A DNA stretch of 62,779 nt from the NCBI RefSeq assembly GCF_907163085.1, contig NZ_CAJQTX010000012.1, positions 1-62,779 of the forward strand. Reading direction: 5' to 3'. The position numbers and the translations under genes are program-made. The notes beneath the pieces are model-generated. The model was given only the letters and a program-made list of their open reading frames with translations, had not been told where the DNA came from and made no database searches. Origin of the DNA: Candidatus Accumulibacter sp. ACC003 (lineage in GTDB: Bacteria > Pseudomonadota > Gammaproteobacteria > Burkholderiales > Rhodocyclaceae). Positions 31,538 through 56,058 of this stretch are shown one piece after another (the stretch's first letter is position 1; every line of letters begins with the position of its first letter).

Positions 31538-32203
31538 TCATTTTTTTCCGAGGAACTGCGCGTCGTCGAAATCGGCCAGCAGCTCCGGTCGATAAACGGC
31601 AAACAGCGTGGCCACCATGCCCGACAGCCAGGCCTCGGAAAAACCGAGCAGCAAGAAATAGGGCAGATATTCGCTCGTCAGGTAGTCGCCATCGTAGACC
31701 CCGGCCAGTGCCAACAGCGCGCACGCCGCCGTGCCGACGGCGATTACGGCCAGCGCCGAGGCGAAAAAGCCCTTGCCGAAGACGTAAATGAAGATGTGCC
31801 GCGGCAAGAGCCGGTCTACCAGGCGATGCAGCACCTCACTCACCGCGACACCGACTCCGGCCATCAACAGGGCGTTGAGCGCAAAGGTCTGCCAGCCGGC
31901 AAAACCATTGAGGCCGACGCCGAGCAAGACCAGGCAGAGGCCGATGAAGGCCAGCGCCCATCCGAAACACAGCGTGAAAACGCCGGCCCCAAGCAGGTGC
32001 AGCGAGAGGCCCGGTTTGACCCCCGCCTGCAAGTGCCAGAGCAGCAGCAGCGCGACGATCGTCGCCAGGAAGGCGTGCAGGCGGGTGCTGTCAGCCAGCA
32101 CGCGCCACGGCGCCCGCCACGCGGCAAAAAGCGCGAGCCCCACGAACAGCACCCATGACAGAACGATCCAGTGACCGTCGAGCAGGCCGTCCGGCAGGTT
32201 CAT
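31538..32203 (-). CDS. CbiM-like energy-coupling-factor transporter permease
   Basis: A 221-residue membrane protein with about six helices. The opening MNLPDGLLDGHWIVLSWVL and the later LHLLGAGVFTLCFGWAL and YLPYFLLLGFSEAWLSGMVA match the CbiM/NikM substrate-capture family for cobalt or nickel. The His-rich extreme N-terminus usual in CbiM is reduced to one His, so the metal is uncertain. No CbiN, CbiQ or CbiO is nearby. Its position next to etfA and close to a B12-dependent mutase locus fits cobalt supply, but this is inference. Confidence 0.7.
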   Translation of the reverse strand: MNLPDGLLDGHWIVLSWVLFVGLALFAAWRAPWRVLADSTRLHAFLATIVALLLLWHLQAGVKPGLSLHLLGAGVFTLCFGWALAFIGLCLVLLGVGLNGFAGWQTFALNALLMAGVGVAVSEVLHRLVDRLLPRHIFIYVFGKGFFASALAVIAVGTAACALLALAGVYDGDYLTSEYLPYFLLLGFSEAWLSGMVATLFAVYRPELLADFDDAQFLGKK

Positions 32204-36936: not shown

Positions 36937-37386
36937 TTACTTGCCGGCCGCTTCGCGTTTGCTGCGCGAGGTTGGCATCAACATCGCTTCGCCGTCGATG
37001 ACCACCTTGTCGCCGACCGTGCACACGGTATCGAGTACAACCCGGCCCTTGTCGGCGAGGACTTCCTTGACTGTCACCTTGGCATGCACCGTGTCGCCGG
37101 GGCGCACCGGCGCGCGAAAACGCAGGGACTGGCTCGTGTAGATCACGCCGGGCCCGGGCAAACGGTTGCCCAGCACCGCCGAGATCAGGCTCGCCGACAA
37201 CATGCCGTGCGCGATGCGACCGCCGAACATCGTCGTGCGCGCGAAATCTTCGTCCATATGAACCGCATTGACGTCGGTGGACACGCCAGCAAACATGACG
37301 AGGTCGGCATCAGTAATGGTCTTGGCGATTTCTGCGCTCATACCGACAGACAAGTCTTCAATATCGTAACCGTTCTGAGGATTCAT
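36937..37386 (-). CDS. phaJ: (R)-specific enoyl-CoA hydratase, MaoC family (PhaJ-like)
   Basis: A 149-residue hydratase. The catalytic Asp/His motif is in DVNAVHMDEDFARTTMFGGR (Asp about 38, His about 43), followed by IAHGMLSASLISAVLG. It interconverts crotonyl-CoA and (R)-3-hydroxybutyryl-CoA and so links the PHB cycle to crotonyl-CoA, the substrate of Ccr encoded just upstream. AAAGG precedes the ATG. It could act on longer enoyl-CoAs; chain specificity cannot be read. Confidence 0.85.
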   Translation of the reverse strand: MNPQNGYDIEDLSVGMSAEIAKTITDADLVMFAGVSTDVNAVHMDEDFARTTMFGGRIAHGMLSASLISAVLGNRLPGPGVIYTSQSLRFRAPVRPGDTVHAKVTVKEVLADKGRVVLDTVCTVGDKVVIDGEAMLMPTSRSKREAAGK

Positions 37387-37666: not shown

Positions 37667-38644
37667 TCAGTCGGTAGTAATCACCACTTTACCGGTAGAT
37701 TTTCGGCTCACCACCTGATCGAGCGCCTCGACTGCACTCTGCAGTGGATACGTCGCCGACACATGCGGTTTGATCACCCCGTCGAGATACCAGTCAATCA
37801 GCGTCTGGATACTGTCGGTCATCACCTGCGGATTAAATTCTGCGTAAGCCGGCCAGTTGATGCCAATGAGGTCCACGTTCTTGACCAGCAAATGATTGGC
37901 GGGAACCGGCGGCACGCTGCCGCTGGCAAAGCCAATGATCAGGATCCGCCCTTCGAAGGCGATGCTGCGCAGCGAAGCGGTAAATAGCTCGCCGCCAACC
38001 GGATCGTAGACCACGTCGGCGCCTCGACCGGCGGTCAGTTCCTTGATCCGCTGGCGGACGTCCTCGCGCCTGGCATCAATCAGATAATCGGCGCCGTGCG
38101 CAGCGGCCACCGCCAGTTTTTCCGGGCTGCCGGCCGTGGCAATGACCGTCGCCCCCAGCTGCTTGCCAATCGCCACGGCAGTCAATCCGACTCCGCCCGA
38201 GGCGCCATGCACCACCAGCGTCTCGCCGGCACGCAAGCGTGCTCGATGGCACAGGGCAATGTGTGACGTGCCAAACACCACCGGCAACGCCGCCGCATGC
38301 TCCCACGACATTTCGGCGGGTATCCGCAGGCAGCGCTTGCCATCGGCAACGACCTGCTCGGCATAACCACCGCACGGCGTCATGGCCAACACCCGATCAC
38401 CGCGGACGATCCCTTCTACACCGTTTCCCAATTCCAGCACCTCTCCGGAAACTTCAAAGCCCGGAGTAAAGGGAAGTGGTGGTTGCTTTTGATAGTGGCC
38501 GCGGGTAATCAGGCTATCCGCGAAATTCACTCCGCAAGCCCGCACCCGGATGCGCACCTGGCCCGGACCGGGACAGGGTTCCGCAAGCTCCTCGAGCCGC
38601 AGGGCAGCGGGACCGGTCAGCTCATGGCAGACGATGGCTCGCAT
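37667..38644 (-). CDS. NADPH:quinone oxidoreductase-type MDR protein
   Basis: A 325-residue zinc-free medium-chain reductase. The N-terminal GroES-like domain has VRACGVNFADSLITRGHYQ, and the Rossmann domain has LVVHGASGGVGLTAVAIGKQ. It reduces quinones or enones with NADPH; an enoyl-CoA or acrylyl-CoA substrate is conceivable given the locus. GGAGG lies upstream of MRAIVCHELTG. It follows ccr by about 140 bp on the same strand. Confidence 0.85.
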   Translation of the reverse strand: MRAIVCHELTGPAALRLEELAEPCPGPGQVRIRVRACGVNFADSLITRGHYQKQPPLPFTPGFEVSGEVLELGNGVEGIVRGDRVLAMTPCGGYAEQVVADGKRCLRIPAEMSWEHAAALPVVFGTSHIALCHRARLRAGETLVVHGASGGVGLTAVAIGKQLGATVIATAGSPEKLAVAAAHGADYLIDARREDVRQRIKELTAGRGADVVYDPVGGELFTASLRSIAFEGRILIIGFASGSVPPVPANHLLVKNVDLIGINWPAYAEFNPQVMTDSIQTLIDWYLDGVIKPHVSATYPLQSAVEALDQVVSRKSTGKVVITTD

Positions 38645-38781: not shown

Positions 38782-40536
38782 CTACTCGCCGATGATCCGG
38801 CGCACCACGTCGGTCATCGAAATCACGCCGACCGGCAGGCCCTTCTCGGTGACCACCAAGCGATGCATTCGCCGTCCGGTCATCAGGCTGACGGCGTCGC
38901 TCAACAACATCTCCGCGTCGCAGGTCGCACAACCCGGGGTCATCACCTCGCCGGCCCGCATGGCGCGTGCCTGATCCGGCGTCCGGCCCTGCCGCGCCAG
39001 CACCATGTCGGTCTGCGAGACGACGCCGACGGCAGCACCCTGACCATCCATCACCACCACCGCATGAATCTCGTTGCCAACCATGATCTTGGCGACGGCG
39101 CCGACGGTATCGTCCGGCGCGCAGGCAATGATGCCACGATGCATCAGATCGCGAACCTTGCTGCCGTCGTCGGCAATCGTGATCGGCTCGCCCTCGACAA
39201 TCCCGGGCAGCGGCGTGGACATCGGGTACGGCGCTGGCGTGGTGTGCACGTCGCCCTTGGGCAGGGTCGGATGAACCATCGCCACTGCCGGTTTGCCGCT
39301 GGCGCCGAGACCGAATTCGGCGGCGCCGATCAGCACCGACATGTTGCCGTGTGGGTGTTTGTTGTCAGCCATCAGCTGATGGGCAATCGGTAATTCTTCA
39401 TAGGTGAATGCCCGCGACATGCAGGGATCAATCTGGCCACTCAGCGCCAACTGGTTCATCTCGTTGCACTGCGTGGTATTGGCGAAATGCGAACCCTGCA
39501 GGCGCTTCTGCCGCATCCACAGGTAGCGCAAATCGACCGTCGCATTGTAGCCGCTGGTACCGGCGCAAACGACCACCATACCGCCCGTTTCACAAACGAA
39601 AATCGAAGTCGGGATGGTCGTTTCACCGGGATGCTCGAAGACAATGTTCGGCGCCCTCTTTTCACCCAGAACTTCCCAGATCTTCGCCCCGAAGCCGCGC
39701 ACGCCCTTCAACCACTTGGCGTAGCCGGCGTTGTCCTTCCAGTGCGGTAGCATGCCCCAATGATCGAAGTCATTGCGATTGATGCAGCCTTTGGCGCCGA
39801 GCTTCATGCAGTAGTCGTATTTGTCCTCGCCCGAGACGATGGCCACGGAGGTCGCGCCAACGGCTTTGGCAATCTGAATCGCCATCGAGCCCAGGCCGCC
39901 CGCGCCGCCCCAGATCAAGGCCACGTCGCCCTTTTTGATCGAACTGCTTTCCCAGCCGTGCAGCATCCGCCAGGCGGTTGCCGCAACCAGCGTGTAGGCC
40001 GCCGCCTCTTCCCAATTCATGTGTTTGGGCTTGGGCATGCACTGCTGCGCCTGCACGCGGGTGAACTGCGCAAAACTGCCGTAGTTGGTCTCGTAACCCC
40101 AGATCTTGAACGAAGGCGAGTACATCGGATCGCCGCCTTTCTTGACCCACGCGCAATTGCGATCATAAATCCCGCAATGCATGACCACTTCGTCGCCGAC
40201 CTTGACGTTGGTGACGTCCTTGCCGACCGCGTAGACGATGCCGGACGCATCGCTACCGCCGATGTGGAAATCCTCGGGCTCGCCAGCCTTGTTGCGAGCG
40301 CCAATGACGTTGACCGGAATACCCATTCCAGCCCAAACGTTGTTGTAGTTGATTCCAGCCGCCATCACGTAGACCAGCACTTCGTCATCGGCAATCGACG
40401 GCGTGCTCACCACTTCCTTCTGGAACGCTGCCGTCGGCTGGCCAAAGCGCTCGGCGCGAATCAGCCAGGCGTGCATCTGCTCCGGAACTTCGCCCAGGGG
40501 AGGTCTATCACCTACTTCGTAGAGTTGCTTACTCAT
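38782..40536 (-). CDS. ccr: Crotonyl-CoA carboxylase/reductase with C-terminal CBS-domain pair
   Basis: A 584-residue protein. Residues 1-~430 are a complete crotonyl-CoA carboxylase/reductase, which uses NADPH and CO2 to make ethylmalonyl-CoA. Residues expected to bind CO2 are present in INYNNVWAG (about 62-70), [13 protein letters not shown] (Glu 149) and [12 protein letters not shown] (His 350). The NADPH loop is [12 protein letters not shown] (209-220). After a Pro-rich linker, residues 460-584 form two CBS motifs ([15 protein letters not shown] and [20 protein letters not shown]; then [15 protein letters not shown] and [15 protein letters not shown]). Ordinary Ccr is about 430 residues, so the CBS pair is an added regulatory module, probably binding adenine nucleotides. 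AAGGAG precedes the ATG. It is the last enzyme of the EMC operon. Confidence 0.93.
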
Positions 40537-40568: not shown

Positions 40569-41585
40569 TCAATCTGACGACTTGAATCTGGAAATAATAT
40601 GTTGCCGCAGGCGCTCGCATTCTTCGAATTGATTGGCTTCTTCAAGGCGTCTGCCGATTTCAGCGTAGCCGCCGAGCAGCTCGATGCCGAAAGTCCCGAA
40701 TTCTTCTTTCAACACCCGTAGTACCCAGCCGCTCTGGTGACGAGTCCGCAGTTTACCGAGCAGGCGCGCGTCGGCGAGAAAGACCCGGTGCCTGTCAAAA
40801 TGCCCATGCAGCTGTTGGATGCCGGTATTCATCGTTGCGCTCACCAGACACACCGGATAATCCCAACCGTCCCGGCGGTCGCTCCGGGGGGCACTGCGGC
40901 CAATCTCGCTGGCAGTCTTGTGCGCCGGCGCGCCAAGGTCAGACTTATTGACCGCGAAAATATCCGGAATCTCGATGATACCCGACTTCAGATACTGGAT
41001 CGTGTCACCCGAAGCCGGCTGCGCCACATAAAGGACGGTGTCGCCAATCTCGGCAATATCGATTTCCGTTTGCCCGACACCCACTGTCTCGACGACGACG
41101 ACATCGAAACACGCCAGCAGCAGCCAACTCATCGGCCAGACCTCGGTCGCGACGCCACCCAGCTGGTTGCGATTGGCCAGCGAGCGAATAAACAGGCCCT
41201 CGTCGTGTGCTGCGTTCTTGATGCGAATGCGATCGCCAAGCAAGGCGCCACCACCCAATTCGGGGCGACTCGATGGATCGACGGCCAATACTCCGACGGT
41301 CCTGCCGGCAAGCCGCCACTGGCGAATCATCGCCGAAACGAGCGACGACTTGCCGGCCCCGGGCGGCCCCGTGACGCCGATCAGATGGCCGTCGTTGAGC
41401 GCCCGCTCGCCAGCCAGCGCGGCCAGCAAGTGTGCCGAGCGCTGGCGCGCCCCGGCCAGCTTGTTGTCCAGCAGATTCAAGCCACTGGCCACTGCCGAAC
41501 GCTCGCCGCGCAGGATTCGCGCGGCCAACTGCTCGGGATCGGGAAGCTGCGCCTGGGTCATGCTTGGCTCAAGGCAGCGGCCCAA
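40569..41585 (-). CDS. meaB: Mutase-associated G3E GTPase MeaB
   Basis: A 338-residue G-protein chaperone that guards loading of adenosylcobalamin onto acyl-CoA mutases. Walker A is GVTGPPGAGKSSL (70-82), the Mg/switch regions are VDPSSRPELGGGALLGDR and VVVETVGVGQTEID, and the base-specificity motif is NKSD. The longest frame overlaps the end of ecm by 17 bp; an internal start (MTQAQLPDPE, 41561) gives no overlap. Its place directly after ecm says it serves that mutase. Confidence 0.92.
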   Translation of the reverse strand: MGRCLEPSMTQAQLPDPEQLAARILRGERSAVASGLNLLDNKLAGARQRSAHLLAALAGERALNDGHLIGVTGPPGAGKSSLVSAMIRQWRLAGRTVGVLAVDPSSRPELGGGALLGDRIRIKNAAHDEGLFIRSLANRNQLGGVATEVWPMSWLLLACFDVVVVETVGVGQTEIDIAEIGDTVLYVAQPASGDTIQYLKSGIIEIPDIFAVNKSDLGAPAHKTASEIGRSAPRSDRRDGWDYPVCLVSATMNTGIQQLHGHFDRHRVFLADARLLGKLRTRHQSGWVLRVLKEEFGTFGIELLGGYAEIGRRLEEANQFEECERLRQHIISRFKSSD

Positions 41586-43587
41586 GCCGCCCCAGACCGT
41601 TGGCTTCGCGGATCACGTCTACCATGTCGGCCATGATCGCATTGAGATTGAAATCCTTCGGCGTATAGACGGCGCTGACCCCCAGCGCTGCCAGTTTCGT
41701 TGCGTCCTCCTGCGGGATGATGCCGCCGGCGATTACCGGCACCTTCGCCAGGTCGCGCGAGCGCAGCTCCTCGAGGACCGCTTCGATAAGCTCCATATGG
41801 CTGCCCGATAGTATCGACAGGCCAACCATATGGACGCCCTCCTCCTCGGCCGCCTGGGCAATCTGTTGCGGCGTCAGCCGAATGCCATCGTAGACCACCT
41901 CGAAGCCGACGTCCCTGGCCTTGACGGCAACCTGTTCGGCGCCGTTGGAATGTCCGTCCAGCCCGGGTTTGCCGACCAGCAGTTTCAGGGGCCGGCCCAA
42001 AGCCGCACCGGTGCCGGCGACCCTGGCCCGGAGCTCGGTCACCTGATCCTTCTTGCCAAGTACGGCGCGGCTATCGATGGCGATGTCGATACCCGTCGGT
42101 GGTCTGAACTCGCCGAACACGGCGCGCAGCGAATCACCCCATTCACCGGTGCTGACTCCCGCCAGCGCGCAGCGAATCGAACTGGGCATGATGTTTTCAC
42201 CGCTCCTGGCGGCATCGCCAAGTCCCTGCAAGGCGGCCCGGACGTCGGCGTCGTTGCGCTTCTGGCGATGCGCCTGCAGCCTTTCGATCTGCTCACGCTC
42301 GGCCGCCGGATCGGTCTTCATGATGCCGCCGTCGCTACCCAGCGTCAGCGGCGACTCGGCGGTTTCCTGGAAACAGTTGACGCCGATGATCTTCAGCTCG
42401 CCCGATTCGATGGCGCGCAAGCGCTGCATATGACTGGCAACGAGTTCGCGCTTGACGTAACCGGACTCGATCGCGGCAATGATGCCGCCCTGCGCTTCGA
42501 CGTTTTCGATCTCCCTTCTGGCGCCGTCGACCAGTTGCTTGACCTTCGCGGCAATCACCGGCGAGCCATCGAGAATATCGGCGTACTCCAGCAGATCGGT
42601 TTCGAAGGCCATTACCTGCTGGATGCGCAGCGCCCATTGCTGATCCCAGGGTCGCGGCAAGCCCATCGCCTCGTTCCACGCCGGCAGCTGGATGGCGCGC
42701 GCCCGCGCGCCCTTGGAAAGCACCACCGCCAGCATTTCCAGAACGATCCTCTGGACGTTGTTTTCCGGCTGCGGCTCGGTCAGTCCGAGCGAGTTCACCT
42801 GCACGCCGTAACGAAAACGGCGAAGCTTCGGATCGCTGACCTGATAGCGGCGCAGCGTCAGTTCGTCCCACATTTCGCCGAAGGCCCGCAGCTTGCAGCA
42901 CTCCTCGACGAAGCGTATGCCGGCGTTGACAAAGAACGAGATGCGCTCGACGACCTGCGAAAACTCGCCTGGCTTGATCTCGCCAGACGCCTGTACCCGG
43001 TCGAGAACGGCCATCGCCGTACACAGCGCGTAGGCCAGTTCCTGAACCGGCGTCGCGCCTGCCTCCTGCAAGTGGTAACTGCAGATATTGGTCGGATTCC
43101 ATTTCGGTACATGCTTGATGGTGTAGTTGATGGTGTCGGCAATCAAGCGCATCGACGGGCCCGGCGGATAGATGTAGGTGCCGCGCGACAGGTACTCCTT
43201 GATGATGTCGTTCTGGGTGGTGCCGCTCAACTCTTTCGGATCGATTCCTCGCCTCTGTGCCAGGCCGATGTACAGCGACAACAACCACGGCGCCGTGGCA
43301 TTGATGGTCATCGCCGTATTCATCTTGTCGAGTGGGATCTGGTCGAACAACTGATCCATATCGTCGATATGCGAGATCGGCACACCGACCTTGCCGACTT
43401 CGCCCCTGGCCAATGGATTATCGGCGTCGTAACCGGTCTGCGTCGGCAGATCGAAGGCCACCGACAAGCCGGTCTGGCCTTTGGCAAGGTTGCTTCGATA
43501 GAGCGTATTGGACGCCCTGGCCGAGCTGTGACCACTATAGGTCCGCATCAGCCAGGGGCGGTCGCGTTTCGTTTGCATGCCATCCAT
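41569..43587 (-). CDS. ecm: Ethylmalonyl-CoA mutase
   Basis: A 672-residue single-chain B12-dependent mutase converting (2R)-ethylmalonyl-CoA to (2S)-methylsuccinyl-CoA. The N-terminal barrel carries the family start RPWLMRTYSGHSSARASNTL and GQTGLSVAFDLPTQTGYDAD. The C-terminal cobalamin domain has GKPGLDGHSNGAEQ (axial His about 546), GLSILSGSH and VIAGGIIPQED. The single-polypeptide layout and neighbours point to Ecm rather than methylmalonyl-CoA mutase. It begins 3 bp after the MaoC gene and is followed by meaB. Confidence 0.9.
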   Translation of the reverse strand: MDGMQTKRDRPWLMRTYSGHSSARASNTLYRSNLAKGQTGLSVAFDLPTQTGYDADNPLARGEVGKVGVPISHIDDMDQLFDQIPLDKMNTAMTINATAPWLLSLYIGLAQRRGIDPKELSGTTQNDIIKEYLSRGTYIYPPGPSMRLIADTINYTIKHVPKWNPTNICSYHLQEAGATPVQELAYALCTAMAVLDRVQASGEIKPGEFSQVVERISFFVNAGIRFVEECCKLRAFGEMWDELTLRRYQVSDPKLRRFRYGVQVNSLGLTEPQPENNVQRIVLEMLAVVLSKGARARAIQLPAWNEAMGLPRPWDQQWALRIQQVMAFETDLLEYADILDGSPVIAAKVKQLVDGARREIENVEAQGGIIAAIESGYVKRELVASHMQRLRAIESGELKIIGVNCFQETAESPLTLGSDGGIMKTDPAAEREQIERLQAHRQKRNDADVRAALQGLGDAARSGENIMPSSIRCALAGVSTGEWGDSLRAVFGEFRPPTGIDIAIDSRAVLGKKDQVTELRARVAGTGAALGRPLKLLVGKPGLDGHSNGAEQVAVKARDVGFEVVYDGIRLTPQQIAQAAEEEGVHMVGLSILSGSHMELIEAVLEELRSRDLAKVPVIAGGIIPQEDATKLAALGVSAVYTPKDFNLNAIMADMVDVIREANGLGRLGPLP

Positions 43588-43589
43588 GA

Positions 43590-44771
43590 CTAGCTCCTCT
43601 TCCTGATCAAGAGACGTCTCTCGATCTCAAAAATCTTCGCCTCGATCTTCTCCTTGCCGATCGCTTTCTTGTCGTTTTCCTTGATGAACAAGTCCTCGCC
43701 GTATTCGGCAAAGGCCGTGGCGGCGCTGATGTTCTTGACGCCGATCAGCTGCAAGGCGACGATACCGAACTTCGCGCCCAGGTCGCCTGGCGCGTCTTCG
43801 GCAGCCAATACGCGTGACAGTGCGGCAACGGTGTCGCCGCCAATCGTCGGCTGCGTGTGATAGCCCTCGGTAAAACCAAGCTCGCAAACACTGTTCTCGC
43901 TGACGTCGCGGCTGGCGAGGCCTTCCAGCCAAGCGAAAACCAGGCCACCATAAACGATCGGCTCACCGCTCATCTTGCCCGACAGGCCGGAACTGAAGAC
44001 GCTATCGAAATGCAGTGGATGCGTATTACCGACCGCGTAGGTCAGCGACAGGTGTTCGTCGGTGATTGTCCGGCCGTTGGCATGAACGATGATCTCGCCG
44101 ACGGGGAAATCCTCGAAATACGAATTTGGCCCGGTCAGGCCACCAGGAAGCGACTCCGGAAAATCCGGCAGGACGACCTCGGCATCGGCTACCCACGGGA
44201 AAGCCGGTATCGTCGTGGACCTCGGCAGGGGCGTCGTTGGCGGTCGATCGCCCTGGCCGGCGACCATGATCTTGCGTTCGTACTGCAACACCACCTGCTC
44301 GTTCTGATTGATCCCCAAAGTGCGGATGGTGACGATACCGGGCTTGCCGGCACCGCGCTCTTTGCGGTCGATGACCTTGGTCAGCGAGCGAATCGTGTCC
44401 ATTTGATAGACAGGCCGCAGGTACTGGGCATCGTAATAGCCGAGATTGGCCATCGCCTTTTCCGAGTCGTTCTGCACGCCGAGCGAGAGGACGACGTTGA
44501 AAACCATCTGCGGCGAAGCCACCAGGCCGGCGAAGCCACTGGCCCGGGCGTACTGATCGTTGATGTACAGCGGATTGCACTGCATGTAGTTGCGGGCAAA
44601 CGCCTCCATCTGGGCCGGGAAGAAAGTAAATCCACGCGGGTGAACAAATACCTGCCCCGGGACAAACTCCTCCAGATAGCGGCCATAGTGCGGATAGCGG
44701 GCTTTCTGCACGTCCACTTTTACCGTTTCGGCCAGTTCGACCTGCGCTTGGAAACGAATCGCTTGCGACAT
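43590..44771 (-). CDS. Tandem-hotdog MaoC-family hydratase
   Basis: A 393-residue protein with two hotdog (MaoC-like) halves. The first contains FPAQMEAFARNYMQCNPLYI, the second HLSLTYAVGNTHPLHFDSVF and EPIVYGGLVFAWLEGL. It sits between mcd and ecm in the EMC operon, so an enoyl-CoA or 3-hydroxyacyl-CoA in that pathway is the likely substrate. It is not the closest match to mesaconyl-CoA hydratase, which is encoded separately at 54994; it may be a second hydratase for mesaconyl-CoA or a related C5 ester. The precise reaction is not known. AAAAGGAAG precedes the ATG. Confidence 0.78.
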   Translation of the reverse strand: MSQAIRFQAQVELAETVKVDVQKARYPHYGRYLEEFVPGQVFVHPRGFTFFPAQMEAFARNYMQCNPLYINDQYARASGFAGLVASPQMVFNVVLSLGVQNDSEKAMANLGYYDAQYLRPVYQMDTIRSLTKVIDRKERGAGKPGIVTIRTLGINQNEQVVLQYERKIMVAGQGDRPPTTPLPRSTTIPAFPWVADAEVVLPDFPESLPGGLTGPNSYFEDFPVGEIIVHANGRTITDEHLSLTYAVGNTHPLHFDSVFSSGLSGKMSGEPIVYGGLVFAWLEGLASRDVSENSVCELGFTEGYHTQPTIGGDTVAALSRVLAAEDAPGDLGAKFGIVALQLIGVKNISAATAFAEYGEDLFIKENDKKAIGKEKIEAKIFEIERRLLIRKRS

Positions 44772-44928: not shown

Positions 44929-46608
44929 TTACGCCGCGTCGATCAGAGAGCGGGCGATGACCTTGAGAGCCAGCGTTTCTTCGGCGCCTTCGAAAATCGA
45001 CAGCACGCGTGCATCGAGGAAATAACGGCTGACGGGCGACTCCTCGGCATAGCCCATGCCGCCATGAATCTGCAGCGCTTCGCGCGTCAACCACTCGGCC
45101 GTCCGACACGTAAAGAGCTTCACCATGCTCGCTTCCATCTGCCCTGAACCCTGGTCCATCAGGCGCCCGACGGCGTAGGTAAACTGCCGGGAAACGGTCA
45201 GCAGAGTCGCCATACGCGCCAACTTGACCAGCGTTAGTTGAAAATCACCGATTGGTTTGCCGAATGCCTTGCGCTCACCGGCATAGGAAACAGCCCTTTC
45301 GAAAGCGGCTTGCATGACACCGATGGCGCGTGCGGCCGTTTGAATACGGCCGCCGGCAAAGCCGGCCATGGTGAAGTAAAAGCCTTTGCCTTCGCCTTGC
45401 GGACCGCCGACCAGGTTTTCGTCGGGGACAAAGACATTGTCGAAGAAAACCTCGTAGGAATGCATCCCGCGGTAGCCGATGGTCGAAATCGCCCGCCCGC
45501 TGAGTACGCCGCCCTGCGGCTGGCGATATTCGAAGTCGTGTCCGTCGTACGAGTCCTTTTCGACCAGGAACATGCTCAGCCCCTTGTGGCCGAGCGAGCG
45601 ATCGGCGTTCGAGCGGGCAAGAACCAGCAGCACGCCGGCCTTGCCGGCCATCGTGCACCAGGTCTTGACGCCGTCGAGCAGCCAGCCACCATCACACTTG
45701 CTCGCCTTGAGCCGCATCGCTGCGACGTCGGAGCCGGTATCGGGTTCGGTGACGGCAATCGCGCACAAGGGCTCGCCCATCGCGACCTGGGGCAACCATT
45801 TTTGCCGCTGCTCTTCCGTTCCACCCTTGAGCAGAGCCCGGCTGAGGATTTCCGGACGCGTGATCAGGCTGCCCGCGGCGCCAAGCGAGCCACGTGACAG
45901 CTCCTCGGTGACGACGATCATTCCCATGTTGTCTTCATGATCGTCGCTCTGGATACCACCGTAACGCTCGGGAATCGAAAGGCCGAAGCAGCCCATCTCG
46001 GTCAAGGGTTCGAGGATCTCTGGCGGAATGATCCGGTCCTCGCGATGAATTTCCTCGGCCAGCGGCATCACCACGTTGGTCGCCAGCTTGCGGAAGGCGT
46101 CCTGCATCATCATCGCGTCGTCGCTGAGCATGTAGGCACCACTGGCACCTGCCAATGCCGCGACATTTCGGCCCAGCGCTTCCAGATTCCCGGCGTCGAG
46201 CTGCTTCTGGCAAAAGGTCGCGAAGGTGGACGAGGCAAAAGCCGTCAGCTCACCCTGATTCAGACCGAAACTCTGCGGTCGCGCCCAGAAACGATTGTGG
46301 ATGTTCTGCAAGGCCTCGGCGCAAAACACCAGCGCCATCCGCTGTTCCAGGCAGAGAGCAGCGCCGGTCGTCGAGCCGGCGTCGGCAACTTTGCCGGCGT
46401 ACTCGAGCGCGAAACGCGCGGCGGTCGATTCCGCAGCACACCAGGCCAGCTCGAAACTGGCCAGCTGATGCGCGTCGAGTTTCTCGTTCGAGACGCCCTT
46501 GTCGCCGACGCATTGCTGCTTCATCCAGCGCAACGATTTCTTGATCACGGCGTCGGCTGATTGAAGGTACTGCACCGCTTCTTGCATGCCGCTGTTGAGC
46601 TCAGTCAT
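44929..46608 (-). CDS. mcd: (2S)-methylsuccinyl-CoA dehydrogenase
   Basis: A 559-residue acyl-CoA dehydrogenase with the ~170-residue N-terminal helical extension that marks Mcd among family members. The catalytic domain has AIAVTEPDTGSDVAAMRLKA, CTMAGKAGVLLVLAR and REALQIHGGMGYAEESPVSR, closing with VLSIFEGAEETLALKVIAR, which holds the catalytic base region. It oxidises methylsuccinyl-CoA to mesaconyl-(C1)-CoA and passes electrons to ETF, encoded at 32-34 kb. AAAGGGATGAG precedes the ATG. Confidence 0.9.
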   Translation of the reverse strand: MTELNSGMQEAVQYLQSADAVIKKSLRWMKQQCVGDKGVSNEKLDAHQLASFELAWCAAESTAARFALEYAGKVADAGSTTGAALCLEQRMALVFCAEALQNIHNRFWARPQSFGLNQGELTAFASSTFATFCQKQLDAGNLEALGRNVAALAGASGAYMLSDDAMMMQDAFRKLATNVVMPLAEEIHREDRIIPPEILEPLTEMGCFGLSIPERYGGIQSDDHEDNMGMIVVTEELSRGSLGAAGSLITRPEILSRALLKGGTEEQRQKWLPQVAMGEPLCAIAVTEPDTGSDVAAMRLKASKCDGGWLLDGVKTWCTMAGKAGVLLVLARSNADRSLGHKGLSMFLVEKDSYDGHDFEYRQPQGGVLSGRAISTIGYRGMHSYEVFFDNVFVPDENLVGGPQGEGKGFYFTMAGFAGGRIQTAARAIGVMQAAFERAVSYAGERKAFGKPIGDFQLTLVKLARMATLLTVSRQFTYAVGRLMDQGSGQMEASMVKLFTCRTAEWLTREALQIHGGMGYAEESPVSRYFLDARVLSIFEGAEETLALKVIARSLIDAA

Positions 46609-46649: not shown

Positions 46650-48092
46650 TTACTTGCTGGTTCGATTACTGACAATCCTGACAAACGAACGCGAGCGCAA
46701 TTCTTCAAGCGTAATCCCGGTCGCGAGAACTTCCTGCTCGGTGATCGCGCCGCACGCCATTCCTCGCAAGAAGAAGTTCAGCAAGCCCTGCCCTGTCGCC
46801 GCATCGTCGAAGGTATTACCGACCAGCGTCGCCTGCGCGGCCTTGTTCAAGAAAGCGTTCAACCGTGCCGAGGCGTCTTGCAGACTGCTCAGGAAGAAGG
46901 TGTCCATCGCCGCGTAGCGCACCGGCAACTGGCCCGGATTCAAGTCCCAGCCCTGATAGTAGCCATGCCGCAGCGAGTGCATGATATTGTCGTAGTGTAA
47001 TTTCCAGGCGCCATGAACGACGCCGCGATTCTCGTCCATCTGCTGGGCCGACAAGACGGCGTCCCTGGCCGCCTTGTGCGGGCCGATCGGCATGCTGGTG
47101 GTCGCGCCGTCGCTGATCGTGATACCGGTCCCGGCCAGGCTGACCTGCATCACATGACGAGCAAAATCGCACGCCGGATGGGTGTGAGTCTGATGAGCGG
47201 CGGTGATGTTGCATGAGGCGGTGTAATCGTAAGTGCCGAAAATCGCCGACCGGCAGCGGCCACCAGCAGCCGCAACGAGCAGCGGGACGGTGTTTTCGCC
47301 CTTGTGATTGATAATCGACTGCGTCGTTTCGATCATGATCTCCATCTTCAGCGAATCCTTGGCAAAACCAAGTCTGCCTTCGAGATTTTCGAGGATCTTC
47401 ACGAAAGTCGAAACCTGCCCCGGTGTGGTGACCTTGGGCAGCGTGACGATGAAGTTCTGCGGCAGCTTGCCGCCGGTTTTTTCGGCCAGCCGGCTCAGAA
47501 AAATATCCAGCGTGCGAATCGAGCGCAGCTTGCATTCTTCCGAGAACGTCTTGACGCGGATACCGATAAACGGCGAGAGCACGCCATCGCTCATCCCCTT
47601 GGCGACTTCGTCTGCCGCCGAGACGGCGTGGCCATCTTCTTCATCGTCAGGACGATTGCCGTAGCCATCCTCGAAATCGATGCGATTGTCTTCAATCGGC
47701 TCGCTTTGCAGCTTCTTTACGACGCGGTTGTAAACCGTGAAAGCCAGCCAGGCGGCTTGCTTGGTCTCACGCACCTGCTCGGGATTCGCTTCCAGCGCAC
47801 GCGTCAGGCTCGCCAGCTCCATGCTGTTGGTCGGCAAGGTATCGGCGCGCGGCAAACCGAGAGCACGGGCGAAAACACTGTAGCTGGGCGCATAGGTGTC
47901 GAGGGTCTTGAGCGCCACCTCGCCCAACTTGCCGGCAAAACCGGCCTTGAACAGATTGGCGCCGCCGTAAACCGTGTGCACCGGTTGCCGGTCGAAAGAA
48001 TCGGCCGGGTAATGCGACTTGAAAGCCTCATTGGCAGCGTGCAACTCGCCAGAATAGGAATTTACTTCGTCATCGGTCAGCGTGAGTTTCAT
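46650..48092 (-). CDS. CitE-like aldolase-family protein (DUF6986)
   Basis: A 480-residue protein of the HpcH/HpaI aldolase/citrate lyase superfamily, DUF6986 branch. The start is MKLTLTDDEVNSYSGE after GAGGAG. Barrel motifs include NFIVTLPKVTTPGQVSTFV, LKMEIMIETTQSI and IFGTYDYTASCNITAAHQ. It is the first gene of the EMC operon, so it may act on a malyl-CoA-type ester (lyase or thioesterase), but no activity is established for this branch and a true Mcl is present at 53917. The 650 bp upstream contain the presumed operon promoter. Confidence 0.75.
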   Translation of the reverse strand: MKLTLTDDEVNSYSGELHAANEAFKSHYPADSFDRQPVHTVYGGANLFKAGFAGKLGEVALKTLDTYAPSYSVFARALGLPRADTLPTNSMELASLTRALEANPEQVRETKQAAWLAFTVYNRVVKKLQSEPIEDNRIDFEDGYGNRPDDEEDGHAVSAADEVAKGMSDGVLSPFIGIRVKTFSEECKLRSIRTLDIFLSRLAEKTGGKLPQNFIVTLPKVTTPGQVSTFVKILENLEGRLGFAKDSLKMEIMIETTQSIINHKGENTVPLLVAAAGGRCRSAIFGTYDYTASCNITAAHQTHTHPACDFARHVMQVSLAGTGITISDGATTSMPIGPHKAARDAVLSAQQMDENRGVVHGAWKLHYDNIMHSLRHGYYQGWDLNPGQLPVRYAAMDTFFLSSLQDASARLNAFLNKAAQATLVGNTFDDAATGQGLLNFFLRGMACGAITEQEVLATGITLEELRSRSFVRIVSNRTSK

Positions 48093-48738
48093 GTCGCTCC
48101 TCCACAAATTTTGCACAACACAATTCCATCAGTATTATGCGATTGTCTTGATTAATTGTCCCCGGTAGTTAATAGGGATTCTATCGGCGATCGTGGAGCA
48201 AGGCAACACGATCGTTGAGCACACAAAGCTATCTCATGAATCTTATAAAAGACCCAAGATAGAAGAGTTGAGCGTGCCAGGCTTGCCGGTAGCGGCGATC
48301 GGGTGTTGTAGGGTTGGCTGCCTCGGCGCCAGCTGCGGGCGGCGGCGTCCTTTGCCGGCGGGAGCGTTCTGCTCGACTATCGCGCTCGATTATTCGCCAG
48401 GAAGGAATGGCCAGGGCGGCAAGGCCGGCCAATCGAACGGCGACGGCGCTTGCCAATGGCCAGCAGGTCGCTCTGAAAATCGTTTATTTCCTGGCGCGGC
48501 ACCGGCGAAGAACTGCTTTTCGCGCCGCCCGCAGGTCGCGCGGCGATGCTCCCGGCCGGGCGACCATCAACCGCCACCTGGTCATTCACCATGGCTTTTC
48601 GTTGGCGCCAGGCAGGGCGCCGTAATTCGCGCCGTTTAATGACTTGCGACTAGACCACAGGTGACTACCGGTGGCGAAAAAGCCGCTTTGCTCAGCGATC
48701 AGCGAGCCGGTGCACGGGACCGCGCTGTCGTCGCCCTA
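48093..48738. promoter_or_regulatory. EMC operon upstream region with inverted repeat
   Basis: About 645 bases without a gene, between the EMC operon start and the 3' end of meh. The part next to the operon (48100-48260) is strikingly AT-rich and likely holds the promoter. CGATCGTG at 48188-48195 is mirrored by CACGATCG at 48207-48214 (11-base gap), an operator-like dyad about 100 bp before the first start codon. The remainder shows nothing I can support. Confidence 0.4.
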
Positions 48739-49593
48739 CTACGCAGGCACCAGCTCGGCAGTGGCACGCATCGCCGCGACGCCGTCGGGTGCTTGCGCCT
48801 CGAGTGACATCTCGCCGTCCTTGCCCTTACAGATCAGACGAAACGGCGCCAGATCAAACAATGGCGCCAGTCCACGGAAACTGAAGCTTTGTATTGGCCG
48901 AGGCGCATGCTCGCGCAGCAGCTCGATCAGCAGCAGCGCGGTCAGCGGTCCATGCACGACCAGACCCGGATAGCCCTCTTCCGCGGTCGCATACTGCCGG
49001 TCGTAATGAATGCGATGCGCGTTGAAGGTCAGCGCCGAGAAGCGGAACAACAGTTTCGGGTCGGGCGTCACAATGCGCACCCAGGCGCCTGCCTCGACGG
49101 CCGGCCAGTCAATCACTTGCGGGCGAGCGACCGCCGGGCCCGGTTCGCGATAGACGATGTCCTGTTCCTCCTCGATGCACAAGACGCCATCCTGATAGAA
49201 GCGGTAGAGCAAGGAAACAAAGGCCAGCGAGCCCGATCGGCCGGTCGTCTGGCGGATATCGCGAATCAGCGCCTCGCGCCGCGCCGGCTGGCCGATCAGC
49301 AAGGGCTGGTGGAAGCGCATGCGCGCACCAGCGAACATCCGTCGCGGATAGGGAATCGGCGGCATGAAGCCACCACGCTGCGGATGCCCGTCGACATCGA
49401 GCTGCGCCTGCGCCGCCCTCGGCAGGAAGTAGAACCAGTGCCAAAGCGGCGGCAGCGCGCTGCCTTTGGCGAAACGCGTCCGTGTGTCGTCCAACGTCGC
49501 CGCCGCCGCCAATGCCGGTGCCAGAGCCAGTTCATCGTCGGCGATTTCCCGGCGACCGATCCATGCGGCGTAGTCTGTTATTGCGTCCGTCAT
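48739..49593 (-). CDS. meh: Mesaconyl-C4-CoA hydratase
   Basis: A 284-residue hydratase of the MaoC/FAS1-like type. The start is MTDAITDYAAWIGRREIA (49593). The first half has LPPLWHWFYFLP and RGGFMPPIPYPRRMFAGARM. The C-terminal hotdog holds LTFNAHRIHYDRQYATAEEG and PGLVVHGPLTALLLIELLRE. In the 3-hydroxypropionate bicycle this enzyme hydrates mesaconyl-C4-CoA to (S)-citramalyl-CoA. The call rests on family plus its place beside SmtA/SmtB-type transferases, mct, mcl and mch, the same set as in Chloroflexus. It is divergent from the rest of the cluster. Confidence 0.8.
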   Translation of the reverse strand: MTDAITDYAAWIGRREIADDELALAPALAAAATLDDTRTRFAKGSALPPLWHWFYFLPRAAQAQLDVDGHPQRGGFMPPIPYPRRMFAGARMRFHQPLLIGQPARREALIRDIRQTTGRSGSLAFVSLLYRFYQDGVLCIEEEQDIVYREPGPAVARPQVIDWPAVEAGAWVRIVTPDPKLLFRFSALTFNAHRIHYDRQYATAEEGYPGLVVHGPLTALLLIELLREHAPRPIQSFSFRGLAPLFDLAPFRLICKGKDGEMSLEAQAPDGVAAMRATAELVPA

Positions 49594-49823
49594 CAGGCCT
49601 ATCCTTTGTGCGTGTTGTCTGCGTGGGCGTTTGCCTAGTACAGCACAGTGGTCGAGCGAACTCAAGCCGCTTGACGGGCATCGCGCGCTGCGCTTGACGA
49701 CGGCCGAAGCGTGCGCCCGCAAGCCCCTTTTCCCATATACTGTGCGCACGGCGTCGGTGCAGGAACCGACGCGCGACACGGGAGTCGAGCCCCTTTGCGG
49801 CTCTGCTGTCGGGAGGAGCAGCG

Positions 49824-51179
49824 ATGGAAGAGGGAAACGTGTCGACCGGATCGGCCCCACCGCGGTCGGCGCCAGGCGGCAGCGCGAGCGCCGGCGATTC
49901 GCGCACCAACAATGGCGAGCAAGGGCTGGAAAAAGCTCGGGACAGGGAGCACGACGACGACGAATGCGCGTCCGAAAACCCTCTGCTGCCGATGGACGGC
50001 CTACGCGTCATTGACGTCGGCACTTTCCTCGCCGGCCCGTACGCGGCGTCAATGCTCGGCGAATTCGGCGCCGAAGTTCTCAAGGTCGAACACCCGATCG
50101 CCGGCGACCCGATGCGGCGCTTCGGCACGGCGTCCAAACGTCACGACGCAACCCTGGCCTGGCTTAGCGAGGGCCGAAATCGCAAGTCGGTGACGCTTGA
50201 CCTCCGCCAGCGTGAGGGCGTCGACCTCTTTCTCAAACTGGTCGCCAAATCCGACGTCCTGATCGAGAACTTCCGACCGGGCACGATGGAGGAGTGGGGC
50301 CTCGGCTGGAATGTCCTGAAGGACGCCAACCCGGCGCTGGTGATGCTGCGCGTCTCGGGTTACGGGCAGACCGGCCCCTATCGTCGGCGCTCCGGCTTCG
50401 CGCACATCGCGCATGCTTTCGCCGGACTGTCGTACCTCGCCGGCTTCCCGCATGAAACGCCGGTGCTGCCCGGCACTTCGCCACTCGGCGACTACCTGTC
50501 CAGTCTCTACGGCGCGATCGGCATCCTGGTCGCGCTGCGCCACAGCGAGGCCACCGGCGAAGGGCAGATTGTCGACATCGGCATTTATGAGGCGGTTTTT
50601 CGCCAGATGGACGAGATCGCCGCGGCTTACGGGCTGTTCGGCAAGGTGCGCCAACGCGAAGGCGCTGGCAGTTTCGTCGCTGTCCCGCATGGCCATTTCC
50701 GGACCATCGACGACAAGTGGGTGGCCATCGCCTGCACCACCGACAAAATGTTTGAACGTCTCGCCGCAGTAATGGGCCGCCCCGAGCTGGCGGCGACCGA
50801 CCGCTACGGCAATCAACGCAAGCGCCTGGCAGCGCGCGACGAAGTCAACCGGATAGTCATCGACTGGGTCGAATCGCTGACCCGCGACGAGGTCATGGCG
50901 CTCTGTATCGACGGCGAAGTGCCGATCGGCAAGCTCAACAGCATCGCCGACATCTTCGAGGACGAGCATTTCATCGCCCGCGGCAACCTGGCGCATCTGA
51001 CCGAGGAAGGACTCGGTGAGGTCGTCGTTCCGGGCGTCGTGCCGACGCTATCGGCAACGCCCGGTCGCATCTCGAACCTCGGGCCACCACTCGGCAACGC
51101 CACCTACGAAATCCTGCGCGAACTGCTTGGCATCTCGGCGCAGGAAATCAAACGTCTGCGGCAACGCAAGATCATCTGA
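49824..51179 (+). CDS. Family III CoA-transferase, SmtA/SmtB-type (first)
   Basis: A 451-residue CaiB/BaiF-type CoA-transferase. The ATG at 49824 has AGGAGCAGCG upstream, so an unusual ~55-residue charged N-terminal extension is probably translated before [20 protein letters not shown]. The catalytic Asp is in [12 protein letters not shown] (about 223). Other signatures are [19 protein letters not shown] and [14 protein letters not shown]. By position it corresponds to one subunit of succinyl-CoA:(S)-malate/citramalate CoA-transferase; from memory the order meh-smtA-smtB-mct-mcl-mch occurs in Chloroflexus, which would make this SmtA. It is paired with a close paralogue 22 bp downstream. Confidence 0.8.
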
Positions 51180-51201: not shown

Positions 51202-52428
51202 ATGACTACTGCTCCAACCGAGACCAGGCTGCCACTTGAAGGCATTCGCGTCATTGACGCCGCGACGATCATCGCGGCGCCGTACAGCGCCTGCATCCTG
51301 GGAGAGTTCGGTGCCGACGTGATCAAGGTCGAGAACCCCAAGGGTGGCGACGGCTTGCGCAACTTCGGCACCGCGACCAGCCGCAAGGACACCCTGACCT
51401 GGCTCAGCGAAGCGCGCAACAAGAAATCGGTGACCCTCGACCTGCACCTGCCCGAAGGCGTCGAGCTGTTCAAGAAACTGATCGAGAAATCCGATGTCCT
51501 GTGCGAAAACTTTCGCCCCGGAACGCTCGAAAAGTGGGGTCTTGGCTGGGACGTGCTGCACGAGCTGAACCCCCGCCTGATCATGCTGCGCGTCACCGGT
51601 TACGGACAAACCGGCCCCTACCGCGACCGACCCGGTTTCGCGCGCGTCGCGCACGCCGTCGGCGGCATCGCTTTTCTCTCGGGAATGCCGCGCGGAACCC
51701 CGGTGACGCCGGGATCGACGACTCTCGGCGACTACCTCACCGGCCTGTACGGCTGCGTCGGCATCCTGATGGCCTTGCGCCATCGCGATCGCACCGGCCA
51801 GGGACAATACATCGACGCCGCGCTGTACGAATCGGTTTTTCGCTGCACCGACGAGTTGGCGCCCGCCTACGGCATGTTCGAACGAGTCCGTGAGCGGCAC
51901 GGTCCGACGCACAACGACTTTGCTTGCCCGCACGGCCATTTCCCAACCAAGGAGGATGGCAAGTGGGTGGCGATTTCCTGCGTGACCGACAAACTCTTCG
52001 AGCGCCTGGCGATTGCCATGAAGCGACCCGAGCTGGCGGCGGCACATGTCTACGGCGACCAGAAGACACGGCTGGAAAACCGCCACGACGTCAACGAAAT
52101 CGTCCGGGACTGGTGCGGTTCGCTGCGCCGTGAAGAAATCCTCGACCGCTGCTTCGCCGCCGGCGCGCCGGCCGGTCCTTTGAACAGCATTGCCGACATT
52201 TTCGGTGACCGGCAGTTTCATTCCCGGCGTAACCTGGTAGCGATCGACGAGGACGACATTGGCGAGACCGTAATCGTCCCGTCGGTGCTGCCGCGCCTGT
52301 CGGTGACGCCTGGCCGAATCAAGCATCTCGGGCCGCGCCTCGGCCAACATACCGACGAAATACTCGGCGGTCTGCTGGGAGTAGACGCGGCCGAAATCGA
52401 GGAATTGCGCAAGAAACGCGTCATCTGA
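51202..52428 (+). CDS. Family III CoA-transferase, SmtA/SmtB-type (second)
   Basis: A 408-residue paralogue of the preceding gene, starting [20 protein letters not shown]. Catalytic Asp in [12 protein letters not shown] (about 177). The pair would form a heteromer moving CoA from succinyl-CoA to malate or citramalate; malyl-CoA is a substrate of the Mcl encoded downstream. Synteny makes it SmtB-like. The two proteins share [22 protein letters not shown] and the end pattern LGPxLG..T.EIL, indicating an old duplication. Confidence 0.8.
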
Positions 52429-54993: not shown

Positions 54994-56058
54994 ATGAGTG
55001 AAAAAACCAGATGGGGCAATTTCTTTGAGGATTTCCACGTCGGTCAGACGATCGTGCATGCGACGCCGCGGACGATTACCGAAGGTGACGTGGCGCTGTA
55101 CACCGCGCTGACCGGCTCGCGTTTTGCCCTGACGTCGGCCGACACCTTCGCCCACAGCTTGTCCTTCCCGCGTTCACCGGTGGACAGTTTCTTGGCCTTC
55201 AACGTGGTATTTGGCAAGACCGTTCCCGATATCTCGCTCAACGCTATTGCCAACCTCGGCTACTCGACCGGGCGCTTCGGCCACCGCGTCTATCCCGGAG
55301 ACACACTCACCGCGGATTCGACGGTGATCGGGCTCAAGGAAAATCGCGACGGCAAAACCGGCATCGTCTACGTGCGCTCGTGTGGCGTCAATCAGCGTGG
55401 CCAGATCGCGCTCGATTACTGCCGCTGGGTGATGGTTCGTAAGCGCGATCCGGCGTCGCCGGCGCCCGAAACGGTGATTCCCGAGCTTCACGACGCCGTT
55501 GCGGCGAGCGACCTGGTGATTCCCGCCGGCATCCGGGTGGACGGCTACGACACCACCCTCTCGGGTAGCACCGACCTATGGGACGACTATCGCGTCGGCG
55601 AAAGAATCGATCACGTCGACGGCATGACCATCGAAGAAAGCGAGCACATGATGGCCACCCGCCTGTACCAGAACACGGCGCGGGTGCACTTCAACCAGCA
55701 CGCGGAAAAGAGCGGGCGTTTCGGACGCCGGATCGTCTACGGTGGTTACATCATCAGCCTGGCGCGCTCGCTGTCGTTCAACGGCCTGGCCAATGCCTTC
55801 AGCGTCGCGGCGATCAACGCCGGCCGGCATGTCGCGCCGGCTTTCGCCGGCGACACGGTGTACGCCTGGTCAGAAATCGTCGAACAGATGTCCTTGCCTG
55901 GCCGCCATGACCTTGGCGCGCTGCGCGTGCGGACGGTGGCGACCAAGGACCGCAGCTGTGCCGACTTCCCGTACAAGCAGGCAGACGGCAGCTACGATCC
56001 AAGCGTGCTCCTTGACTTCGACTATACGGTCCTGATGCCGAAGAGACCGGGGGCGTAG
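54994..56058 (+). CDS. mch: Mesaconyl-C1-CoA hydratase (beta-methylmalyl-CoA dehydratase)
   Basis: A 354-residue tandem-hotdog hydratase that closely follows the known Mch family: GNFFEDFHVGQTIVHATPRT at the start, VFGKTVPDISLNAIANLGY, STGRFGHRVYPGDTLTADST, then HVDGMTIEESEHMMATRLYQ and GRRIVYGGYIISLARSLSFN in the second half. It interconverts mesaconyl-C1-CoA and beta-methylmalyl-CoA. CGAGGA precedes the ATG, and it follows mcl by 33 bp. It is the shared node of the EMC pathway and the bicycle-type branch. Confidence 0.92.
   Translation: MSEKTRWGNFFEDFHVGQTIVHATPRTITEGDVALYTALTGSRFALTSADTFAHSLSFPRSPVDSFLAFNVVFGKTVPDISLNAIANLGYSTGRFGHRVYPGDTLTADSTVIGLKENRDGKTGIVYVRSCGVNQRGQIALDYCRWVMVRKRDPASPAPETVIPELHDAVAASDLVIPAGIRVDGYDTTLSGSTDLWDDYRVGERIDHVDGMTIEESEHMMATRLYQNTARVHFNQHAEKSGRFGRRIVYGGYIISLARSLSFNGLANAFSVAAINAGRHVAPAFAGDTVYAWSEIVEQMSLPGRHDLGALRVRTVATKDRSCADFPYKQADGSYDPSVLLDFDYTVLMPKRPGA

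Follow-up and report, generated by a model that had tools for sequence, protein, structure and literature searches.

Crotonyl-CoA carboxylase/reductase (Ccr) consumes NADPH and CO2, acts on an intermediate, crotonyl-CoA, that is common to the synthesis and use of PHB, and is used in carbon-fixation engineering. CBS pairs dimerise, and the dimers change upon ligand binding; as part of an enzyme or complex, as in IMP dehydrogenase, CBS-type pyrophosphatase, arabinose-5-phosphate isomerase and AMPK gamma, they are associated with nucleotide regulation. Ccr is among the enzymes described in a passage of a preprint (PMC12632816) as the fastest CO2 fixers, and part of PMC10966969 describes the Ccr of K. 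setae as a tetramer with half-site reactivity and with both open and closed subunits, whose CO2-binding residues are N81, F170, E171 and H365.

We analysed a stretch of 62,779 nucleotides from Candidatus Accumulibacter sp. ACC003 (contig NZ_CAJQTX010000012.1), hereafter the window, in which a Ccr gene continues into a CBS pair. The minus strand of positions 38782..40536 translates without interruption from ATG to stop into 584 residues, and the plus strand of the same interval contains stops. Pfam places ADH_N at residues 50-171, ADH_zinc_N at residues 214-364 and two CBS stretches (PF00571) behind them, the best of which, residues 461-514, scores 80.2 bits where the cut-off is 24. An initial annotation had proposed, naming no strand, that Ccr and CBS domains are joined here in one frame, and this is confirmed over all 584 residues with domains above the curated cut-offs. 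Both halves also proved as complete as it had supposed, the Ccr part through a TIGR01751 match and the CO2-site residues N65, Y148, E149 and H350, and the C-terminal CBS pair through its two PF00571 stretches and a modelled fold. Its statement that known Ccr proteins end near residue 430 agrees with the 47 unfused rows of our tree set, which are 399-434 aa long when counted from the aligned start.

The same in-frame fusion occurs in 61 unique full-length proteins, the window protein included, which rules out an error of sequencing or assembly. We looked for a stop between the two domains in the copies from other genomes, leaving aside those that are fragmented or truncated at contig ends (e.g. 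G976, G996 and L087), and found none. A frame break in a Propionivibrio MAG (G195; L013/L014/L064) falls inside the Ccr part, at about residues 159-168, and since the Mcd and Ecm genes on that contig are also in pieces, it resembles indel errors of this particular assembly. In the window's own genome (5.39 Mb, 13 contigs) no second Ccr was found, the next match reaching 45 bits at 30% identity; with only one Ccr found, controlling the enzyme would amount to controlling the step.

The Ccr part (residues 1-411; 39304..40536, minus strand) has the medium-chain dehydrogenase fold and matches the carboxylating reductase model TIGR01751 over residues 17-412 with 558.8 bits, against an NCBIfam cut-off of 378.55; its nearest solved chains are AntE 4y0k, 9kva, and Ccr 4gi2 and 6na3. 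We mapped the CO2 pocket through chain 6na3, whose numbers correspond to those of the paper plus 2, an offset adopted because all four positions then fit simultaneously. On this mapping N65 (40342..40344) is equivalent to N81 of the K. setae enzyme, Y148-E149 (40090..40095) to F170-E171 and H350 (39487..39489) to H365, all on the minus strand, and these positions, like the GGAGGLG loop, are invariant in 61/61 fused proteins. The replacement of F170 by Y148 has a precedent in 4gi2, which likewise has tyrosine. Judged by its sequence, the window's Ccr part is most likely a working carboxylase/reductase of the ethylmalonyl-CoA (EMC) pathway.

Behind it, residues 412-455 (39172..39303, minus strand) form a linker in which the 61-protein alignment reveals a conserved TPxPYPMSxPLP, with P442 and L443 in all 61 fused proteins, P438 in 60 and S440 in 59. 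As aligned, this motif is kept beyond the needs of an idle tether. Conservation of PYPMSxPLP to this degree, strong for a linker, is what would be expected of a docking strip, and could thus reflect a structural role in which the CBS pair ties together subunits or EMC enzymes (the MeaB-like GTPase, the mutase), or drives filaments, with no regulatory ligand. The general tendency of CBS pairs to dimerise would suit such a role, as would the MeaB-Ccr gene order, which is kept in Accumulibacter and across most of the EMC-type loci examined from Competibacteraceae. We nevertheless judge it distinctly improbable, as both nucleotide motifs of the pair are near invariant and a module of purely structural purpose could do without them.

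These motifs lie one in each repeat on the minus strand. The first CBS motif (residues 461-514; 38995..39156, by PF00571) contains G504-V-V-S507-Q-T-D510 (39007..39027), and the second (residues ~526-580, with limits set by eye from PF00571 and the AF2 model; 38797..38961) contains G570-V-I-S573-M-T-D576 (38809..38829); both have the form GxxS/TxxD, in this family a motif of ribose-binding type. Across the fused proteins G504, T509, D510, G570 and D576 are present in 61/61, S507 in 60/61 and S573 in 59/61. S507 is lost in L111, and S573, C472 and C536 are all lost in L112 and L114, which also give the weakest CBS matches among the fused proteins and count against a regulatory reading of the domain. 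The cysteines raise a further alternative, a thiol switch in which C472 and C536/C539 sense oxidation at the anaerobic-aerobic change. C472 is found in 59/61 and C536 in 58/61 fused proteins, but C539 is found in just 50/61, C536 is absent from L112, L114 and L120 as well as from the fused protein L149, and a cysteine at such a CBS strand position is in general common in the family; we consider a switch of this kind very unlikely.

To gauge constraint, we calculated dN/dS for 120 pairs of 16 ungapped 584-codon sequences (the window and 15 chosen named loci). The medians are 0.066 for the Ccr part, 0.172 for the linker (118 usable pairs) and 0.111 for the CBS part, figures to be read with a median dS of 0.7 to 1.0, that is, partial saturation. 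The CBS part is under purifying selection. Together with the 61 unique full-length proteins and the presence of the fusion in every Ccr-bearing genome of the genus (23/23), this ratio already contradicts the idea that the CBS pair is a passenger domain without function, or an artefact of assembly or annotation, which we regard as scarcely credible.

Structural modelling was informative for the CBS pair and uninformative for its placement. A full-length AF2 model based on 35 aligned fused proteins reached a mean pLDDT of 57.9 and a pTM of 0.41, with residues 392-453 below 50 in a model poor overall; on account of that mean it was rejected as a guide to domain arrangement, and it allows no statement on where the CBS pair sits. 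The CBS pair modelled alone has a mean pLDDT of 91.2, and the best 50 solved folds matching it are, judged by their titles, all CBS proteins. Among these 50 are AcuB with AMP, ADP, ATP or Ap4A, CBSX2 with AMP, and Atu1752, and also proteins not known as energy sensors, for instance the zinc-bound Hypoxic Response Protein I (1xkf) and the pair from arabinose-5-phosphate isomerase (4o9k, 3k2v). The modelled fold therefore fits a nucleotide sensor, yet names no ligand. The CBS pair might instead regulate Ccr through NAD(P)H, acyl-CoA, S-adenosylmethionine, Ap4A or c-di-AMP. The GxxSxxD motif suits the ribose of any adenosine-bearing ligand, the matched fold of AcuB accommodates Ap4A alongside the three adenine nucleotides, and, since NADPH and CoA thioesters are what Ccr works with, sensing of redox or CoA state would make equal sense. 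EMC genes are moreover discussed in part of PMC12604563 as a redox, not an energy, valve. The sequence offers no positive sign for any single one of these ligands, and we hold control through one of them to be unlikely.

The genomic context is that of the EMC pathway, to which the initial annotation had assigned the carboxylation step: the fusion gene lies within an EMC-type cluster on the minus strand, its enzymes named by context and mutase identity. Directly upstream is a MeaB-like GTPase (40569..41585; TIGR00750, 210.4 bits, below the cut-off of 240.75), followed by a B12-dependent mutase (41569..43587; MM_CoA_mutase and B12-binding domains), probably ethylmalonyl-CoA mutase (Ecm), which over partial stretches is 67-81% identical to mutases beside unfused alphaproteobacterial ccr genes. 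Beyond it are a mesaconyl-CoA hydratase-like protein (Mch; 43590..44771), named by context with 67.4 bits to the 2-methylfumaryl-CoA hydratase model, whose cut-off is 560, and an acyl-CoA dehydrogenase (44929..46608), by context probably methylsuccinyl-CoA dehydrogenase (Mcd), for which all NCBIfam models score below cut-off. On the downstream side, also on the minus strand, are two neighbours conserved by synteny, a PIG3-type quinone oxidoreductase (37667..38644; TIGR02824, 265.3 bits, below the cut-off of 296.8) and a MaoC-type hydratase (36937..37386; PF01575, 89.9 bits), the latter a conserved neighbour in Accumulibacter loci.

Several other genes of the window deserve mention in their own right. 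A DUF6986 protein (46650-48116; PF22484, 588 bits) adjoins the putative Mcd gene, shows a faint HpcH/HpaI aldolase match and might serve a malyl-CoA lyase-type step. Near the EMC cluster, at 48739-49860, 49824-51179, 51229-52425 and 55012-55962, are genes for an FAS1_DH-type dehydratase, two family III CoA-transferases (58% alike) and a mesaconyl-CoA hydratase-like protein, a set that to us resembles the glyoxylate-assimilating half of the 3-hydroxypropionate bi-cycle. Enzymes of this bi-cycle are reported, in part of PMC6593406, for Accumulibacter and Competibacter. A CbiM-type cobalt uptake gene (31538-32203) shares this region with the B12-dependent mutase and adjoins two ETF subunit genes.

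Searches for the fusion across genomes placed it in Accumulibacter, Propionivibrio, Competibacteraceae and six alphaproteobacterial families. Within the genus Accumulibacter, 23/28 genomes carry Ccr, in each case fused and with matches spanning residues 1-584. Two of the other genomes of the genus, G079 and G186, have Ccr sequences identical to those in records named Candidatus Accumulibacter aalborgensis (L053) and necessarius (L073), which places the window in Accumulibacter. The family sample adds little to this: 6/199 genomes match (E <= 1e-100), five of them genus members, the window's own included, and the sixth G195. Sampling of the order of G266 (family f71) yielded matches to the Ccr-CBS query in 22/40 genomes, comprising 23 full-length fused copies, one partial copy that crosses the junction (G981) and five further pieces, which come from G976, G969 and G996; among the matches listed for these 40 genomes there is no unfused Ccr that is complete. 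The alphaproteobacterial order of G837 presents a mixture, with 112/199 genomes matching and 16 fused copies, 15 of which cover nearly the whole query and one of which begins at residue 177 (G1118); nine belong to f284, four to f245 and one each to f265, f268 and f281. No fused copy was found in the other 96 of the 112 Ccr-bearing genomes, where the unfused matches end at about residues 405-430 with four exceptions, three of them partial (G1047, G1057, G1087) and one (G1116) reading across two stop codons as far as residue 479. A further fused copy, in family f298, emerged when 289 alphaproteobacterial genomes were searched with a CBS profile. At wider scales, the class sample contains 4/369 matching genomes (three fused, one of which is the window's own, and one unfused, G236) and the phylum sample 61/398 (two fused, again including the window's own). 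Outside Pseudomonadota, fusions were sought through plasmid records: among the 52 with Ccr (E <= 1e-60), Streptomyces and Rhodococcus included, coverage of the query never exceeds 75%.

With the linker and CBS part as query, named genomes yielded 46 loci, among which one (L091) consists of linker only and another (L092) is a different CBS protein. The named carriers include many Accumulibacter, Propionivibrio (P. aalborgensis among them), Competibacter, Contendobacter and other Competibacteraceae, together with MAGs labelled Rhizobiales and Rhodospirillaceae. As some carrier MAGs are named for soil, river or lake, its range goes beyond phosphorus-removing sludge. The link to organisms that cycle polyphosphate and PHA, drawn in the initial annotation, is thus upheld in part: Accumulibacter, Propionivibrio and Competibacter/Contendobacter are among the carriers, and so are the soil, river and lake MAGs and the alphaproteobacterial families.

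Individual records from these surveys show some peculiarities. The linker-only locus (L091:6001-6081) reproduces 81 bases of linker-coding sequence exactly, on a different contig of the Competibacteraceae MAG that also has the fused ccr, and we take it as an assembly or duplication scar. A MAG labelled as a Synechococcaceae cyanobacterium (L085) contains a piece of a fused ccr, with 86% identity to that of the window across residues 80-411, and is probably mis-binned. Four alphaproteobacterial genomes (G837, G1190, G1152 and G1158; L132, L134, L135 and L136) have both a fused and an unfused Ccr, and in all four the unfused ccr adjoins the mutase gene. An identification of the alphaproteobacterial family f284 with Defluviicoccus, which would have made it a third lineage of glycogen accumulators, was considered and is unsupported, each of two 16S probes matching 0/16 genomes when exact matches are required; these probes cover few known Defluviicoccus according to a passage of PMC10958769, so the result is no disproof.

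Trees of the Ccr part place the fused proteins together. In a quick tree of 109 rows (126 minus 17 identical; 62 fused and 47 unfused), all 62 fused rows lie on one side of a branch with an SH-aLRT of 92, and in a careful tree of 40/62 fused and 13/47 unfused rows they form one clade with support 98/93, recovered in 99% of 200 bootstrap trees. Closest among the unfused proteins is that of G236, 414 aa long and encoded beside an Mcd-like gene, followed by four alphaproteobacterial proteins that end in GQG(A/K), approximately where the fused ones continue. These nearest relatives lack CBS domains, which counts against the regulatory reading. A single gain of the CBS pair is the simplest account, although change counts do not separate gain from loss. 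We also looked for a source of the CBS pair. No separate CBS gene, as a pre-fusion state would show, was detected by CBS profile in the 0.8 to 3.4 kb downstream flanks of the unfused sister ccr genes (L115-L119), and a search of 61 family genomes for a stand-alone CBS ancestor gave two fused copies and nothing else at E <= 1e-18; in the 289 alphaproteobacterial genomes, where up to 14 candidates per genome were scored, two genes pass 1e-25 and both are Ccr fusions.

Accumulibacter and Propionivibrio stand near Competibacteraceae in these trees. We dropped the claim that the Accumulibacter copies are nested within Competibacteraceae, as they appear in the careful tree, since the quick tree makes the two groups sisters; the 12 Competibacteraceae rows as one clade are not rejected (p-AU 0.251), and in view of this conflict and test no direction of transfer can be assigned. 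A clade of Competibacteraceae that includes the deep copy L120 is rejected (p-AU 0.0145), an indication that this family obtained ccr from several sources. Identities between the window and Competibacteraceae are mostly 83-87% for Ccr (79% for L088, 76% for L120), 69-71% for the mutase (near-complete copies) and 46-51% for the MeaB-like protein; these uneven neighbour identities, with the patchy spread of the fusion, suggest horizontal transfer of ccr without proving it. In both trees the fused Ccr of Accumulibacter iunctus (L069) stands next to Competibacteraceae and apart from the Accumulibacter group, and its cluster neighbours are, unlike the Ccr itself, Accumulibacter-like, a possible gene-level replacement.

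In some of the other carriers a carbonic anhydrase gene lies near the fused ccr. Eight records from Propionivibrio, Competibacteraceae and one unclassified MAG show this arrangement (L058/L093, L060, L065, L067/L147, L082/L126, L087, L122/L144 and L145), the call being made by Pfam Pro_CA for the L082 protein and by 79-92% identity to L082 for the others; the window's fusion locus has no carbonic anhydrase match. The blocks of carbonic anhydrase and ccr span L082:3987-9238, L144:2171-7357, L145:2380-7632 and L147:6043-14550. The ccr copies in L082 (the G971 sequence), G983 (L144) and G984 (L145) lie between the carbonic anhydrase and a GTP-dependent PEP carboxykinase; a gene for a LysR regulator follows further upstream, and each of these three genomes has another fused copy besides the carbonic-anhydrase-linked one. 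In G1001 a PEP carboxykinase gene separates two fused copies on a single contig. This grouping of carbonic anhydrase, ccr and PEP carboxykinase is in keeping with a block for CO2 handling and lends support, short of proof, to the fused enzyme being a managed carboxylation point; around the second copy of some Competibacteraceae it looks as if CO2 supply and nucleotide state were handled together.

We lean, by a modest degree, towards reading the CBS pair as a built-in regulator that tunes Ccr by binding adenine nucleotides, with the energy state setting flow through the EMC pathway, because the fusion is read in one frame, the motifs are intact, the CBS part is under purifying selection, its fold matches CBS proteins, no second Ccr was found in the genome and the context is that of EMC. 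The Ccr of this pathway would have acquired a C-terminal CBS pair (a Bateman module) as a regulatory domain, whose two sites would take up AMP, ADP and ATP. Binding may alter the pairing of CBS modules on neighbouring subunits, a change that could pass through the conserved linker to the ease with which Ccr moves between open and closed states; as the K. setae Ccr is an open/closed tetramer and CBS pairs form dimers, one pair per subunit could shift that balance. The energy state would in this way direct crotonyl-CoA, CO2 and NADPH towards ethylmalonyl-CoA rather than PHB, by activation or by inhibition, between which the sequence cannot tell.

The EMC pathway has been discussed in storage-polymer bacteria. 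EMC is named in part of PMC8956781 as the propionyl-CoA source for PHV in Contendobacter, and a portion of PMC12604563 describes raised EMC genes under low phosphate in Accumulibacter, above all type I, and discusses EMC there as a redox outlet. More tentatively, and with considerable doubt, we suggest that the fusion is an energy-gated, CO2-fixing Ccr that arose once and was apparently passed between competing storage-polymer lineages, the glycogen-accumulating Competibacteraceae and the polyphosphate-accumulating Accumulibacter, and Propionivibrio, where it would switch crotonyl-CoA between PHB and ethylmalonyl-CoA. If so, the fused Ccr would decide whether crotonyl-CoA goes to PHB or to ethylmalonyl-CoA, propionyl-CoA and PHV, and the switch would set how NADPH is settled when the ATP supply moves from polyphosphate to glycogen. 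The presence of the fusion in several storage-polymer bacteria, competitors among them, suggests an unrecognised control point for diverting stored carbon. Opinions still differ on the pathway by which polyphosphate- and glycogen-accumulating organisms balance anaerobic redox, as a passage of PMC12604563 notes, and a regulated Ccr would bring into that debate a testable protein, on both competing sides. For engineering, a natural Ccr with a nucleotide-sensing tail would provide a ready on/off handle.

We found no paper on a CBS-bearing Ccr in a search of the literature that covered open-access sources and little of the subscription journals, and a term search of PMC8956781, PMC12604563 and PMC9041414 returned no mention of CBS. 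Compared with described systems, the window protein shares its catalytic part, CO2 pocket and GGAGGLG loop with known Ccr (TIGR01751; K. setae 6na3/6owe, M. extorquens 4gi2) and with AntE (4y0k), and differs from known Ccr, which ends after the catalytic part, in about 170 additional residues of linker and CBS pair. The fold of that pair is like those of Atu1752 (3fhm), AcuB (9s52 and relatives) and CBSX2 (4gqy), with TM-scores by query of 0.76-0.87 at identities of ~16-30%; these we take to be free-standing CBS pairs, whereas that of the window is fused to Ccr. In uniting enzyme and CBS pair it resembles IMP dehydrogenase, CBS-type pyrophosphatase, arabinose-5-phosphate isomerase and AMPK gamma, and its CBS part gives weak, sub-cut-off matches to the IMPDH, KdsD and manganese-dependent diphosphatase models, but the catalytic domain differs from all four. 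CBS-controlled enzymes are thus already known, and a CBS-bearing Ccr is a new variant among them.
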